Part shown: in pieces, positions 26,493 to 33,017 of the stretch
How the letters are laid out: each line of letters starts with the position of its first letter
How positions within the stretch are numbered: the first letter of the stretch is position 1
The notes under the pieces: model-generated
The model's database searches: none
What the model was told of the DNA's origin: nothing
What the model saw: the letters and a program-made list of their open reading frames with translations, nothing else
Program-made: the position numbers and the translations under genes
NCBI GenBank assembly: GCA_026996295.1
Contig: JALWLL010000108.1
Span: 1 to 33,262 of the forward strand
DNA: 33,262 nucleotides
Reading direction: 5' to 3'
From: Sulfurimonas sp.
GTDB taxonomy: Bacteria; Campylobacterota; Campylobacteria; Campylobacterales; Sulfurimonadaceae

Positions 26493-26502
26493 TGTAGATG
26501 AG

Positions 26503-26526
26503 AAATGAAGGAATTCCTTCATTTTT
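26503..26526 (+). terminator. Perfect palindrome with T-run between trmD and rplS
   Basis: A 22-base perfect palindrome (26503-26524) centred on GGAATTCC folds as a 9-bp AAATGAAGG/CCTTCATTT stem with an AATT loop and continues into T residues. It could be an attenuator or RNA-processing hairpin setting the L19 level relative to trmD. Its position 25 bases before the rplS start within a conserved operon argues against full termination. Confidence 0.55.
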
Positions 26527-26550
26527 ATGAAATAAAATTAAGGATAACTT

Positions 26551-27012: not shown

Positions 27013-27018
27013 TATAAT
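27013..27018 (+). promoter_or_regulatory. Probable -10 box of the peptidase/ATP-grasp operon
   Basis: TATAAT in TAGTAGTATAATCAAA within the 146-base gap after rplS, 38 bases before the M20 ATG. An AT-rich, T-tract region (26980-27000) upstream replaces a -35 element. This suggests that the four-gene cassette is transcribed apart from the ribosomal operon. Confidence 0.6.
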
Positions 27019-27056: not shown

Positions 27057-28169
27057 ATGAAGTACTTAGATGATCTAAAAACAGTTGTGAAAATCAACTC
27101 ATATACCAAAAATAAAAGTGGCGTTGATAAAGTTGGTAAAGTTTTTGACATATGGCTGAAAGAGTTAGATTTTAGCTGTCACATATATAAAAGAGAACTC
27201 ATCGGTGATCATCGTTATTATACCTCTGCAAAAGACAAAAGTTCAAAAAAATTATTGCTGCTTGGGCATCTAGATACCGTTTTTGCACCCGGAAAATTTG
27301 AGAACTATTCAGAAGATGAACACTGGGTTTATGGTCCAGGTGTATGTGATATGAAGGGTGGCAATATTGTTGCACTTCAGGCACTTCGAGAGTTACACGA
27401 GGAAGGTATTAAGCTAAAAAATATAGACATACTTTTTGTAAGTGATGAAGAAACAGGTAGTGATGATTCTAAATTTTTGACATCAAAATTAGCACAAAAG
27501 TATGATTATTGTTTTGTATATGAGGCAGCGGGAGAGAACCTTGAAGTGGTAACGGGAAGAAAGGGTGTGGGAACTTTCACTATAGATATTCAAGGGGTTG
27601 CTGCACATGCCGGTAATAATTATGTTCATGGAAGTGATGCCAATCTTGAAGCATCTTATAAGTTGCAAAAGCTTGTTCAACTTACAAATCTTGAGCTTGG
27701 AACAACTGTGAATGTTGGGAAGATAGAGGGCGGTATAGGGGCAAATACGATCTCTCCTCATGCACATATAGTGTTTGAGATCCGTTATAAATCAGAAGCA
27801 GAAAGGGATCGGCTGCTACGTGAAATAAATACCATAGTACAAACTAACTATGTACAAGGCTGTGTGAGTGTACTAAGAGGTTCTATTCAAAGAGATGTTA
27901 TGCAAACGACACAAGCTTCACTTGATCTGATTGAGAATATTACACATATTACAGGTTCTAAGTTGACTTATGAAGAGAGAGGCGGTGTGAGTGATGCAAA
28001 TATTGTAAGCTCAAACGGTGTAGTCACGCTAGATGGCTTTGGTCCTTTTGGCGATGGTGATCACACCAGCAATGAGAGAGCTTCCAAAGAGAGTTTTCAA
28101 TCCAGAATAGAACTAAGTAAAAAACTTTTTAGATATTTTATCAATAATTTAGATTTTAAAGGGGAATAG
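27057..28169 (+). CDS. M20 family metallopeptidase, carboxypeptidase G2-like
   Basis: 370 residues of the M20/M28-type di-zinc fold. Ligands and catalytic residues are visible: H71 and D73 in LLGHLDTVF, D98 in GPGVCDMKGG, E131/E132 in VSDEETGS, E156 in VYEAAGE, and H336 in GDGDHTSNE. The dimerisation domain contains GVAAHAGNNYVHGSDANLE and GGIGANTISPHA. The pattern is closest to carboxypeptidase G2 (glutamate carboxypeptidase), which removes C-terminal glutamate from N-acyl or folyl substrates. There is no signal peptide, so it should act in the cytoplasm. It is the first gene of a unit with two ATP-grasp ligases and an M14 carboxypeptidase; the next gene starts immediately after its stop. 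Substrate unknown. Confidence 0.9.
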   Translation: MKYLDDLKTVVKINSYTKNKSGVDKVGKVFDIWLKELDFSCHIYKRELIGDHRYYTSAKDKSSKKLLLLGHLDTVFAPGKFENYSEDEHWVYGPGVCDMKGGNIVALQALRELHEEGIKLKNIDILFVSDEETGSDDSKFLTSKLAQKYDYCFVYEAAGENLEVVTGRKGVGTFTIDIQGVAAHAGNNYVHGSDANLEASYKLQKLVQLTNLELGTTVNVGKIEGGIGANTISPHAHIVFEIRYKSEAERDRLLREINTIVQTNYVQGCVSVLRGSIQRDVMQTTQASLDLIENITHITGSKLTYEERGGVSDANIVSSNGVVTLDGFGPFGDGDHTSNERASKESFQSRIELSKKLFRYFINNLDFKGE

Positions 28170-29072
28170 ATGTCAGATAGAACAATAGGAATGTGGTTAT
28201 ATAGTAACGGTGGCGGAGACAAAATTGGCAAGAAGATCATTAAAAAATTAAAAGAGCGGGGTATTGAAACCATCGACAATATAAATCTCAGACACGCAAT
28301 CGCTAAAAATTCCCATATCCTTTATAAGGATATCAAGCTTGATAAGCTTGATCTGTTTTTCTCTTACAATGCAGGGGAACAAACGCAGTATCAAATGTAC
28401 TTGTATCAGGCACTTAACCGTGTGATACCTATGATAAATACTTATGATTCTTTTGCTTTGACAGAAGACAAATTTCAGACATCTTTTGTTTTAAGAAATG
28501 CCGGAGTGAAAACAGCAGACTATAAGCTATGTCATAGAGACGATGGGCATCAACTTAAAAAGATCATTAAGAAATGGGATAAAATGGTTTACAAGCCAAC
28601 AGACGGCTGGGGTGGCGTAGGTCTTACCAAGATTGAGAATGAGGCAAACCTTGATATGTTACTGCCATTTTTAAACCAAATGGATTTGCGTTATTTTTAT
28701 GTAGAGAAGTTTATCAATTATGACAATACAGATTTTAGAGTTGATATAGTTGATGGAGAGTTTATCGGTTGTTATGGCAGAAAAGCAAGCGGTACTGACT
28801 GGAGAACTAATGTAACCTCAGGCGGAAGTGTGTTTATGCGTGATGCAAACGATGATATAATTGCCGTAGCAAAAAAGGCAGCAAAAGTGTGTGGCGTGGA
28901 TATTGCAGGGGTGGATATTATTTATGACAGGGAAAAAGAGGAATATATTGTTTTAGAAGTTAACGGTATTCCGGCATTTGCAACACCGGAGCAGGAGAAA
29001 ATGGGACTAGATTTTAATGAGAAGAAGATAGAGAAAATTGTAGAACTCATTGATAAAAAAACAAAAAAATAA
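28170..29072 (+). CDS. RimK-like ATP-grasp ligase
   Basis: 300 residues. The ATP-grasp core spans ~95-270: K101 (TEDKFQTSFVL), K142 in VYKPTDGWGGVGL, E179 in YVEKFI, then DFRVDIVDGEFIGCYGR, DWRTNVTSGG, and the metal-binding VLEVNGIPAF with E263 and N265. All expected ATP and magnesium residues are present. RimK-type enzymes join an amino acid to a carboxylate through an acyl phosphate (for example, glutamate onto ribosomal protein S6, or lysine-carrier and coenzyme ligases). The N-terminal ~90 residues are a short pre-ATP-grasp domain. It starts at the base after the M20 stop and is followed by a second ATP-grasp gene. The amino acid and acceptor cannot be told from sequence. Confidence 0.88.
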   Translation: MSDRTIGMWLYSNGGGDKIGKKIIKKLKERGIETIDNINLRHAIAKNSHILYKDIKLDKLDLFFSYNAGEQTQYQMYLYQALNRVIPMINTYDSFALTEDKFQTSFVLRNAGVKTADYKLCHRDDGHQLKKIIKKWDKMVYKPTDGWGGVGLTKIENEANLDMLLPFLNQMDLRYFYVEKFINYDNTDFRVDIVDGEFIGCYGRKASGTDWRTNVTSGGSVFMRDANDDIIAVAKKAAKVCGVDIAGVDIIYDREKEEYIVLEVNGIPAFATPEQEKMGLDFNEKKIEKIVELIDKKTKK

Positions 29073-29088
29073 TTTCAAAGGAGCAGAG

Positions 29089-30411
29089 ATGAAGCAGAAG
29101 AAGCTACCAAAAATAGGCTTTTTATATTTAGATTATGTTTTAAGGTTTTTTGATCATAGTAATTTTAAAGGGTGGCCTGATAAGATTGAGACAGTTACTT
29201 ATCATTGGAAAAATGATAAGGTTCGCTTTATTAATGAGGTGAGAAGAAAAAATATCGATGTACTTATAGGAAATATCCCTGCAACAGCCTATGAGACCTT
29301 TAAAGAGATAGCTACCGCTCTTCCAAATGTACGCTTTATTCCATCTATTGAAACACAGTTCTCAAATAAATCAAAAGAGAATGTCACCCTTTTTTGTGAA
29401 AAGTATGATCTTCAGGCACCACAAACATTTATATCTTATGATGAAAAGGAGGCAGATGAGTATTTTAAAAATTGCTCCTACCCTCAGATCATCAAAAGAA
29501 GTTACGGACCTTCAAATTATGGGGGTTACTATGTACATAAAGTTGACACATATAAGGAAGCTACCCAACTTTTAGAGGAGAAAAAATACAAACCGGTATA
29601 TTCTCAAGATGCTATCGCTCTTAAAGACAGCGGAGATATCCGTGTTATGCTTATTGGTCATAAGCCTGTTTGTGCTTTTTGGCGATACTCGGGTGAGGGT
29701 GAGTGGATCACCAATACTTCCCAAGGTGGAAGCATGAGTTATGAAAATGTACCTATGAATGCGTTGGAGCTTGCAGTCAAGGCAAGTAAAGCTGCTAAAG
29801 CCGAATACTGGGCTTGTGATATAGCGATCGATGAGCATACTTTAGAACCTTACATTTTAGAATGTGCGACAGCGTTTGCAGCATTTCCGTATATACGGGA
29901 TTGGATAGGTCAGTATATTATGTGGGATCTTAGTGGTGGAAGATTTAGGCTGCCGCACGTACCGCTTTTTTCGTGGGAAGAGCTAGGAAAGATGAGCCCT
30001 TCTGTGCTTAGAACATTAAGACATCTTTATTTTGCGCGCTATGAGCCATCTTGTGACGGGGCATATTGGCTGGCAGATAAAGGAGGTTTTGATATGGAGT
30101 TGACCGAGACCTCTAGCGTAGAAGATATACCTGAATCGATAAAACCTCCTTTATCTGAAGATCAACTTCCAGAAGTGGTTAGGGGTGAAGATATACAAGA
30201 ACCTTCAGAATTTGAGCATCATAAAATGTACGTTCTTGAAAATATATCTCTAACAGAGCTTATGACTCTACCCGGTATGGACGAAGAGATCGCTGTTAAG
30301 ATTAAAGAGTTTATAGAGAGTGAAAATATTACTTCCTTTGAAGCATTGGATGAGTATGATTTCGCTTCAAATCAACAAATTAGCCAATGGGCTAAATTTT
30401 TCAAAAAATAA
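29089..30411 (+). CDS. ATP-grasp protein with C-terminal helix-hairpin-helix domain
   Basis: 440 residues from the ATG at 29089, chosen for its AAAGGAG site (a frame-extending ATG at 29050 lacks one). The ATP-grasp region (~95-275) shows IIKRSYGPSNYGGYYVHKV, DIRVMLIGHKPVCAFWRYSG, WITNTSQGGSMSYENVP and YWACDIAIDEHTLEPYILEC. The final metal motif reads ECA (258-260) where RimK-type ligases have E-x-N, so the metal-binding Asn is missing. A ~100-residue linker, partly acidic and Pro-rich, follows. Residues ~384-425 resemble a helix-hairpin-helix module (ISLTELMTLPGMDEEIAVKI), as in ComEA-like proteins. It may be a ligase with altered metal binding or a regulatory partner of the preceding ligase. 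Confidence 0.82.
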   Translation: MKQKKLPKIGFLYLDYVLRFFDHSNFKGWPDKIETVTYHWKNDKVRFINEVRRKNIDVLIGNIPATAYETFKEIATALPNVRFIPSIETQFSNKSKENVTLFCEKYDLQAPQTFISYDEKEADEYFKNCSYPQIIKRSYGPSNYGGYYVHKVDTYKEATQLLEEKKYKPVYSQDAIALKDSGDIRVMLIGHKPVCAFWRYSGEGEWITNTSQGGSMSYENVPMNALELAVKASKAAKAEYWACDIAIDEHTLEPYILECATAFAAFPYIRDWIGQYIMWDLSGGRFRLPHVPLFSWEELGKMSPSVLRTLRHLYFARYEPSCDGAYWLADKGGFDMELTETSSVEDIPESIKPPLSEDQLPEVVRGEDIQEPSEFEHHKMYVLENISLTELMTLPGMDEEIAVKIKEFIESENITSFEALDEYDFASNQQISQWAKFFKK

Positions 30412-30428
30412 TTTTTTAAGGTAATCAT

Positions 30429-33017
30429 TTGAGACAACAATACAGTTCTTACGCAGAGTGTGTCGAGTTTTTTAAAAAAGCTCAAAAAACCAATCCGGAT
30501 CTTTTTCATGTTGAATCTATAGGAGAGACATGGGAAGGCAGAGATATCATTGCGGTAACTATTACGAAAAATATTCAAAAACACCAAGAAAAACCGGCAT
30601 TATTTTACACCGGTACAATACATGCCAGAGAATGGATAGGTATCGAGCTTGCTTTGAGCTTTGCCAAATATATACTTGAACATATAGATTATGATCCGCA
30701 GCTCAATGAGATTTTAGACAAGACTACACTCTATATGGTCCCGTGTGCAAATCCGGATGGGTTTGAGTATTCAAGAAATCATTTCTCTTTTTGGAGAAAA
30801 AACAGAAGACGCAATGCCGATGGTAGTTTTGGAGTAGATCTCAACAGGAACTTTGCAGTTGGTTTTACTCCAAACAAAAACACAACATCCAATGTTTACT
30901 CAGGTCCTAGCGCTTTTAGTGAGCCTGAAACAGCAGCACTTCGAGATTTTGTTTTGGAGCATAAAAATATTACGATCGCTTTGGATTACCATTCACAAGG
31001 AAATGTTTTTTTCCCTGCACACAACTTTATACATGAAGATGCAGAAGATGCAATAGATTTAAACCTATTGGCAGGGAACATGGCTGAGGAGATCAAAAAA
31101 GAATCAGGGCGTGAGTATGGGGTACATATGGGTAAACCTCCTGTGCATCTTATCTCTGGAAGTGGCAGGGAGTTTTATTATGCTCAAGGCGCACTCTCTT
31201 TGGTTGTAGAGGTAGGTACAAGAAACATCAGTGATTATATAGAGCATATGAGTGAAAATATAGATGAGAACATTCCCGCTCTTGTATATGCACTCTCAGA
31301 AGTGAATAACTATAAAAAAGAAGAAGCACTTCCAAGGGTAAAAAATTTTGTAGCTACAAGTGTAGGTTCAAGAGAGATCGAGCTTTGCTGGGATTATATT
31401 GAAGATGAAACAGTATTTTTTGAGATATATAGATCAAAAAAGAAAAAGGGATATGCACAGAGTTCCAATAGAATCGGGATGACGAAACTCAAAAGCTTTA
31501 CAGATAAGAACCTGCCCTCATCTACGAACTATTACTACTATATTCGGGCAGTTTGTAAACGAAGAAAAATTAAATCTCCTTTTGGACAACTTCTGGGTGT
31601 AAGAACACATCCTGCTGAGAGTATGTTTTCAAAAATCCTGTACCCTTTAGCAGATAAAGTGGGTTATGTGGGAGAGAAAACGAAAAAAAATAGTGAGCAT
31701 TTTGGTGTTAATTCTCTTTTTGTCGGTATCTCTGAAAAAAAAGGTGAGTGCCTGGGTGTTTGTGGATTTTCTTTAAAAACCATACCGGAGAATGCTATTA
31801 TAACGTCTGCTTCTGTATCTTTTTACCCTATGAACAGAGTTTCTGTGCAGGTTGAGAGTTATGGTGAGTGGCGCGTTGGTCAGATGGATGAGCGAACAAT
31901 TGGTAAGCTTGATAGTTTTGATGACATTAAAAATGTAAAAATGCTCTCTTATATAGATAGACCAACAGGATCCGCACAACTTTCTCAGGGTATATGGAGA
32001 ACATATAAGTTCGCAAAGCAGGAGTTAGATGTTTTACAGAAGTCACTTAAAAGAAGAGAAGCATACTTTAGGATGGAGGGGCCATCCTCTTTACCTCTTG
32101 ATCGTGCTTCGCAACTTATGCAGTGGGATATAGGATACGGTAAGTTCAGCGGTGGTTTGACCTACAGACCAAAACTCGACATTTCTTATACTATCAACGA
32201 AGCAAGAATTGATCTTCAATCTTCACATGAATGTAGTGCACTTAAAGATAATATGCTCGATTCAACATTACAGGTAGGCTTTGATAATAACGGCAATAAA
32301 GAGTATGGATGTATTGAGTTTGATCTCTCTAATTTGCCCGAAACAGACAATACTGTTATATCGAGTGCATACATAGAGATGGAAGCAGACAAAATTAATG
32401 CGCTTAACAGTTTGCGTTTTCATATAGAGATGGTAGTGCCGTGTTCGGGTGAGAAAACCTATGATAAAATCAAAAACAGAGAAGTGATAGAGCGCATAGG
32501 ATATGATGTAAGTGTCTCTGATATTAAAGAGTCATCCAAGCAAAGATTCGTCTTTGACAGATATACAATCAATGAAATGATCGATAGTGTAAAAAACACT
32601 AAAAAAGTGGTGTTTGTAATCTCTGCATCATCTCATAAGCCTTTTTGTAAATCTCAAAGTGTTAACTGGCTTGATGTAAAACAGATAAATAAACCTTCTT
32701 TGGTAATTAATTATATTAAAAAAAGAAGACATGCACCGCCAAGTGTGAAAAATTTACGCCATTCAATAGAAAATGATATTATAAAACTTGAGTGGGATAT
32801 TCCAAATGATGAGGCTTATAAAGGGGCTATCGTTGTAAAGAATGCTTTTAAAGTTCCATGCTCTCCATATGATGGACAAAAATTATATGGAGGTATGGAT
32901 AATTATACATATGATAATTTTGGAGATAAAGATGTACATAAGTATTATGCAGTATTTTCATACGATGATGTTCCAAACTTTTCAGAACCGATATTTATAG
33001 AAGTTAATAAGCCATAA
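30429..33017 (+). CDS. Large M14 zinc carboxypeptidase with Fn3-like and DNRLRE-like modules
   Basis: 862 residues from a TTG start with AAGG upstream. The M14 catalytic domain fills ~1-290: zinc ligands H65 and E68 in GTIHAREW, H188 in LDYHSQGN, substrate-binding NR139-140 in DLNRNF, and catalytic E261 in VVEVGT. All key residues are kept. Beyond it come an Fn3-like domain (~300-390), two related beta modules (~395-590 and ~595-770) and a final Fn3-like segment. The two modules resemble DNRLRE-type domains (FSLKTIPENAIITSASVSFY and IEFDLSNLPETDN with ISSAYIEME). Such modules are usually extracellular, yet no signal peptide is visible. It follows the second ATP-grasp gene by 17 bases. M14 enzymes include the deglutamylases that reverse ligase-made glutamate tails; whether this one does is inference. 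Confidence 0.87.
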   Translation: MRQQYSSYAECVEFFKKAQKTNPDLFHVESIGETWEGRDIIAVTITKNIQKHQEKPALFYTGTIHAREWIGIELALSFAKYILEHIDYDPQLNEILDKTTLYMVPCANPDGFEYSRNHFSFWRKNRRRNADGSFGVDLNRNFAVGFTPNKNTTSNVYSGPSAFSEPETAALRDFVLEHKNITIALDYHSQGNVFFPAHNFIHEDAEDAIDLNLLAGNMAEEIKKESGREYGVHMGKPPVHLISGSGREFYYAQGALSLVVEVGTRNISDYIEHMSENIDENIPALVYALSEVNNYKKEEALPRVKNFVATSVGSREIELCWDYIEDETVFFEIYRSKKKKGYAQSSNRIGMTKLKSFTDKNLPSSTNYYYYIRAVCKRRKIKSPFGQLLGVRTHPAESMFSKILYPLADKVGYVGEKTKKNSEHFGVNSLFVGISEKKGECLGVCGFSLKTIPENAIITSASVSFYPMNRVSVQVESYGEWRVGQMDERTIGKLDSFDDIKNVKMLSYIDRPTGSAQLSQGIWRTYKFAKQELDVLQKSLKRREAYFRMEGPSSLPLDRASQLMQWDIGYGKFSGGLTYRPKLDISYTINEARIDLQSSHECSALKDNMLDSTLQVGFDNNGNKEYGCIEFDLSNLPETDNTVISSAYIEMEADKINALNSLRFHIEMVVPCSGEKTYDKIKNREVIERIGYDVSVSDIKESSKQRFVFDRYTINEMIDSVKNTKKVVFVISASSHKPFCKSQSVNWLDVKQINKPSLVINYIKKRRHAPPSVKNLRHSIENDIIKLEWDIPNDEAYKGAIVVKNAFKVPCSPYDGQKLYGGMDNYTYDNFGDKDVHKYYAVFSYDDVPNFSEPIFIEVNKP

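Follow-up and report, generated by a model that had tools for sequence, protein, structure and literature searches.

Four adjacent genes of a Sulfurimonas sp. genome, encoding an M20 peptidase, two ATP-grasp proteins (GraspA and GraspB) and an M14 carboxypeptidase, are inherited as a set by approximately one quarter of the sampled Campylobacterales and by scattered other bacteria. The reading that we prefer, with about as much confidence as doubt, is that the set constitutes a single intracellular pathway in which amino acids are ligated to a shared acceptor at the expense of ATP and are subsequently removed by hydrolysis. The genes lie as follows in the window (the whole 33,262-nucleotide stretch of DNA that was analysed):

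27013..27018, forward strand: TATAAT, a candidate -10 element (from reading the sequence) approximately 39 nt upstream of the M20 start
27057..28169, forward strand: M20, carboxypeptidase G2-like peptidase, 370 aa
28170..29072, forward strand: GraspA, RimK/LysX/MptN-like ATP-grasp ligase, 300 aa, with canonical ExN (E263, N265) and R190
29089..30411, forward strand: GraspB, divergent ATP-grasp protein (residues ~1-300) with an HhH tail (~380-440), 440 aa
30429..33017, forward strand: M14 carboxypeptidase (residues 1-295) followed by FN3-like and DNRLRE-like beta domains, 862 aa

The open reading frames bear out the layout of the original prediction: M20, a RimK-like ATP-grasp protein, a second ATP-grasp protein with an HhH tail and a modular M14, separated by 0, 16 and 17 nt. 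GraspB starts at the ATG at 29089, which has a GGAG-type ribosome site and agrees with its relatives; a longer frame from the TTG at 29050 is an over-call. The M14 start codon is TTG; its relatives begin at the identical residue, mostly with ATG. Pfam domains are Peptidase_M20 and M20_dimer in M20, RimK (PF08443) in both GraspA and GraspB, and Peptidase_M14 in M14, the DNRLRE-like domain of which scores below its curated cut-off. The unit had also been credited with a probable promoter of its own: the TATAAT hexamer is there, but a sigma-70 scan, whose total of 22 sites compares with 24.2 expected for shuffled sequence, lists none at that position, and the promoter is plausible only. Rfam and tRNA scans of the whole window yield nothing. 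The four-gene arrangement itself is not a matter of chance, since dozens of loci distributed over three phyla show the same genes in the same order.

Could the operon simply bring together two peptidases and two ligases with separate household roles? Each of the M20, M14 and ATP-grasp families is widespread by itself, which makes the question a reasonable one. When each of the four proteins is searched in one set of 298 Campylobacterota genomes (with only strong-level M20 matches counted, and with a broken piece of GraspB in genome G088 excluded), M20, GraspA, GraspB and M14 are found in 32, 31, 31 and 32 genomes, respectively; 30 of the 34 carriers have all four genes and the other four have a subset (pairwise Fisher p from 2e-36 to 3e-41, that is, down to the order of 1e-41, phylogeny being ignored). 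A corresponding count for the two ATP-grasp proteins in 349 Campylobacterales genomes places GraspA in 98, GraspB in 98 and both in 95, leaving three of each apart (p = 9e-78, again ignoring phylogeny). Contig edges account for four of these six discordant genomes: the first bases of GraspB are visible at the contig end in two of them (G408 and G411), and GraspB itself runs off the contig in two others (G383 and G398). Because the p-values ignore phylogeny, the structural evidence (gene order and the retention of unlinked genes) is the stronger. Three genomes (G353, G357 and G362) have the four genes on four separate contigs and retain them all, and two others (G062 and G175) retain GraspB though it lies 750-840 kb from the other three genes. 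That unlinked genes are kept in the former three genomes argues that the linkage is functional rather than merely positional. The original prediction of a joint system held that the genes should be found together in related genomes; they are, even where they are unlinked. Coincidental neighbourhood is refuted in this sample by co-occurrence and by retention without linkage, and we regard it as extremely improbable.

The order M20-GraspA-GraspB-M14 holds across different families (the M20 is divergent in some cases), and the two discordant genomes that remain after the contig-edge cases are split precisely into operon halves: G045, in which the cassette sits on a 4.2 kb contig, has only M20 and GraspA, and G263 has only GraspB and M14. 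Gene order and these two genomes, a small number, suggest two ligase/peptidase couples, M20-GraspA and GraspB-M14. Mirror-tree distances, which are descriptive, correlate at 0.67-0.79 among M20, GraspB and M14 and at only 0.45-0.56 between GraspA and the other three. The lower correlation of GraspA is a consequence of the exchange of two subtypes: GraspA sequences form two well-supported clades that substitute for one another between loci, and three loci (L069, L108 and L120) carry two GraspA copies. Clade replacement and double copies suggest that GraspA ligases of different specificity feed one pathway.

What might such a pathway do? The peptidases offer one approach to this question. A comparison with solved folds, made for the catalytic domain of M14 and the core of GraspB, matches the former to carboxypeptidases T, A and B (Z ~32 to carboxypeptidase T). 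M14 has counterparts of the A/B-type zinc ligands H69, E72 and H196, and of R127, N144, R145 and E270; its residues H65, E68, R123, N139, R140, H188, E261 and R247 are invariant in 23 sequences. With its catalytic residues invariant, the enzyme should be active. R247 falls at position 255 of CPA in an alignment with carboxypeptidase A4, and this position is occupied by Arg in 87 and by Lys in one of the 88 distinct sequences matched by a search pattern. Arg255 confers specificity for acidic C-terminal residues on carboxypeptidase O (PMC9925722); the same specificity is predicted for M14 by this precedent, which is not proof. Tyr248 of the A/B-type enzymes is not kept: H240 aligns with it, and relatives have Lys or another residue.

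No signal peptide is visible in any aligned M14 ortholog, the catalytic domain standing at the very start of the protein, and none is seen in M20; we take both peptidases to be probably cytosolic. (A note on location: FN3/DNRLRE-type beta domains are usual in secreted proteins, and export of M14 by a route that dispenses with a signal peptide would separate it from the cytosolic ligases.) What M14 has in common with carboxypeptidase O and with the cytosolic M14 deglutamylases is the carboxypeptidase fold, together with the CPO-like acidic-specificity Arg at 255. CPO, however, is a GPI-anchored or secretory protein, whereas this M14 is a product of 862 aa that lacks a visible signal peptide and bears FN3/DNRLRE-like domains; unlike CPO and the deglutamylases, it is operon-linked to ligases.

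The top solved relative in the M20 family profile is carboxypeptidase G2 (1cg2, 3.3e-38). The metal and catalytic residues H71, D98, E131, E132, E156 and H336 are kept, and so are N230, R243 and R279, the equivalents of CPG2 N275, R288 and R324, which we take, from the CPG2 structure, to bind glutamate. The likeness to CPG2 resides in the metal ligands and in these three residues. It does not extend to the active-site K208, which is replaced by glutamate (E163) in M20, or to a signal peptide.

GraspA has the RimK ATP-grasp fold and motifs (PF08443, 66.8 bits against a cut-off of 21). ExN is present in every distinct sequence that the pattern matches, 89 out of 92. Its closest curated models, MptN, RimK_fam and LysX, all score below their cut-offs; it misses both the RimK equivalog NF007764 (51.1 against 331 bits) and rimK_fam (128.7 against 143.4). 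In Pseudomonas RimK, the terminal Glu of bound poly-glutamate touches N262 and R189, and the inner glutamates touch S7, R8, R64, S14 and S68 (PMC10092738). Alignment identifies GraspA N265 and R190 as the equivalents of N262 and R189, places Y66 at R64, E70 at S68 and, if extended upstream at constant offset, N13 at R8. GraspA thus retains RimK's site for the last amino acid, whereas the part that binds the chain has changed; ligation is likely, and an S6-like poly-glutamate extension is not. The "tail" of the original prediction, if understood in the sense of RimK poly-glutamate, is consequently disfavoured; the proposal of glutamate or acidic chemistry is supported at the level of residues: Arg255 in M14, the CPG2-like character of M20, and the R189/N262 equivalents in GraspA. 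Judged by sequence, the catalytic and specificity residues of the peptidases and the RimK-like contacts of GraspA make a cycle of amino-acid ligation and removal likely.

Might the acceptor be a protein? A conserved protein would then receive an acidic C-terminal extension that the carboxypeptidases trim, in the manner of RimK/RimB or of tubulin glutamylation. That both ligases are RimK-fold proteins, the specificity residue of M14 and the large M14 accessory domains are in keeping with this proposal, but the two arginines with which RimK holds the growing chain, Arg8 and Arg64, are N13 and Y66 in GraspA. A ribosomal acceptor, suggested originally by location, fares poorly. The rplS gene is upstream of the cassette in part of Sulfurimonas and in a few other loci, and is missing from this position in other families, where unrelated housekeeping genes flank the cassette; its lineage-specific presence means that the location of the cassette is no pointer to the ribosome. 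The C-termini of ribosomal protein S6 are long Ala/Glu-rich tails, most of them ending in Glu, in 15 carriers and 14 non-carriers alike. Also in favour of a protein tag, the EF-P gene lies directly upstream of a solo GraspB in many Sulfurimonas loci, and upstream of M20 in one locus (L145), but this adjacency is found only in Sulfurimonas-type loci. All things considered, we think trimming of a protein tag rather unlikely. A more far-reaching reading, a novel and reversible amino-acid tagging pathway made up of the GraspA/M20 and GraspB/M14 couples, acting on a universal acceptor (EF-P or a cofactor, for example) and moving from phylum to phylum as a self-sufficient cassette, is unlikely too.

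The model of GraspB folds like ArgX, LysX and RimK (Z 20-21.6), ArgX and LysX being closest, and its core is strongly conserved. The Asn of ExN is replaced by Ala260, the motif reading E-C-A or E-S-A in all 118 matched sequences among 122 distinct ones; the D244-x13-E258 spacing is otherwise as in GraspA, Cys259 is conserved and Cys243 is present in nearly all sequences. Since the ExN Asn contacts the terminal Glu in RimK, GraspB either uses another residue and substrate or has lost catalysis; it may be catalytically dead. The HhH tail is real: relatives match HHH_3 (4e-27) and HHH_5, and the modelled tail has a pLDDT of ~87-93, the window's own tail having no Pfam match. The number of its HhH units ranges from one to several, and a 381-382 aa form (G353 and G357) has no tail at all; being variable and sometimes missing, the tail is accessory.

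The likeness to ArgX and LysX raises the prospect of carrier-based biosynthesis, in which an amino acid is placed on a LysW-like carrier, modified, and freed by the M20 enzyme. The M20 family does include LysK-type hydrolases, and an M20 hydrolase partners the ligase in the LysX/ArgX-LysW systems also. The cassette, however, has no LysW carrier gene and no genes for the downstream kinase, reductase or aminotransferase, and the curated LysX and LysK cut-offs are not reached; we consider this explanation very unlikely.

Complete four-gene units are found outside the Campylobacterota in Thiomicrorhabdus heinhorstiae, in three Desulfuromonadales loci and in Photobacterium sp. DA100, and represent horizontal presence. 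Across the compared loci, no fifth conserved gene travels with the cassette, and small ORFs beside it are not conserved across lineages, so that the absence of a precursor peptide gene, as first noted, stands. The named hosts (Malaciobacter halophilus, Poseidonibacter, Sulfurospirillum arcachonense, Hydrogenimonas, Thiomicrorhabdus, Photobacterium) belong to genera of mostly marine or saline habitat, and within the genus of S. arcachonense M14 occurs in only 2 of 6 genomes. These facts invite the suggestion of an osmolyte module: the ligases would build a short acidic peptide as a compatible solute, and the peptidases would recycle it at falling salinity. The NAGGN operon PA3459-PA3461 is a precedent for pairing a peptide-forming enzyme with a peptidase; it encodes a glutamyl aminopeptidase, and requires an asparagine synthase and an acetyltransferase (PMC8070244). 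The cassette would share with it the conjunction of non-ribosomal peptide bond formation and a dedicated peptidase, but the ligase family differs, the peptidases are carboxypeptidases, the acetyltransferase and asparagine-synthase partners are absent, and GraspA scores 30.7 against the 569 bits of the NAGGN synthetase cut-off (TIGR03103). Moreover, the groups to which the hosts belong are in any case largely marine, and an osmolyte leaves the HhH tail and the large M14 accessory domains unexplained. We hold this to be an unlikely explanation as well.

For the cycle of ligation and removal that we favour, the following division of labour can be offered: 1) GraspA would be a working RimK/LysX-type ligase that has kept the residues for the terminal amino acid and has a different acceptor site. 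2) GraspB would be a second, LysX/ArgX-like ligase or a partner that handles the acceptor, in which the metal/amino-acid site has been remodelled and the HhH tail is optional. 3) M14 would strip acidic (Glu/Asp) residues from the C-terminus. 4) M20 would act like a glutamate carboxypeptidase on the product that M14 trims or on what that product breaks down to. 5) The acceptor would be encoded outside the cassette, would be common to several phyla, and is more probably a metabolite or a short peptide than a dedicated precursor.

How does this compare with what is already described? The RimK-RimB(-RimA) system of Pseudomonas combines the RimK ligase with a retropepsin-like aspartic endopeptidase as eraser (PMC11957791, PMC10092738). 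It resembles the cassette in having a RimK-fold ligase and a peptidase that reverses the ligase product; the cassette, in contrast, has two metallocarboxypeptidases and two divergent ATP-grasp proteins, its GraspA is without the chain-binding arginines, and no link to S6 is seen. RimABK was rejected as a classification, there being no gene for a RimB retropepsin-like peptidase beside the cassette among the conserved neighbours examined. So were a graspetide (RiPP) pathway, with the MvdC model at 15.2 against 425 bits and no precursor or small ORF conserved across lineages, and a defence system, with no PADLOC match, no phage match and housekeeping flanks. None of the curated families and defence models describes the four-gene set. 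In the open literature we found no paper joining Sulfurimonas, ATP-grasp and carboxypeptidase, and none describing HhH, ATP-grasp, RimK and M14 together; earlier mention of the combination or of the neighbourhood is possible. The parts belong to known families; a name or a described function for the set was not found.

The set is small, and several bacteria in cultivation carry it whole (Malaciobacter halophilus, Poseidonibacter, Sulfurospirillum arcachonense and Thiomicrorhabdus heinhorstiae), which makes it directly accessible to experiment. One can think of it as an unnamed four-enzyme pathway, present in approximately one quarter of the sampled Campylobacterales and with its members retained even when scattered over the chromosome, that either makes a metabolite or modifies a common molecule.

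Upstream of the cassette, an inverted repeat lies between trmD and rplS, the gene that precedes the cassette, and by eye it is terminator-like:

Window 26500-26530: inverted repeat GAAATGAAGGAATTCCTTCATTTTT, trmD-rplS interval.

The gene for GraspA, the RimK-like ATP-grasp protein, is doubled within or adjoining a single cassette at three of the compared loci (L069, L108 and L120); the L069 pair is 83% and 59% identical to the GraspA of the window. GraspB, the divergent ATP-grasp protein, also occurs in more than one copy and form. The window's own genome encodes a second GraspB of 477 aa on contig C53 (L021:723-2156), unlinked to the cassette, its tail being (HhH)2 (PF14520) and different from that of the cassette copy. 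A short form of 381-382 aa, without the HhH tail, is found at L182:3382-4527 and L184:6822-7970, in genomes in which all four cassette genes are scattered. At many Sulfurimonas loci a GraspB gene standing apart from the cassette follows an EF-P gene on the same strand, at a distance of ~30-110 nt:

L028-L037, L050, L058, L136-L144: solo GraspB 3' of EF-P gene.

At L145 it is the M20 carboxypeptidase gene that EF-P precedes.

Most named carriers of the cassette belong to marine or saline genera; the M14 carboxypeptidase is present in only two of the six genomes of the Sulfurospirillum arcachonense genus. In Sulfurimonas genome G088 a disrupted piece of GraspB containing two stops lies at C1:157170-157472, and M20, GraspA and M14 are absent from the genome as searched; this piece, together with the three missing genes, is consistent with loss of the whole four-gene system there.
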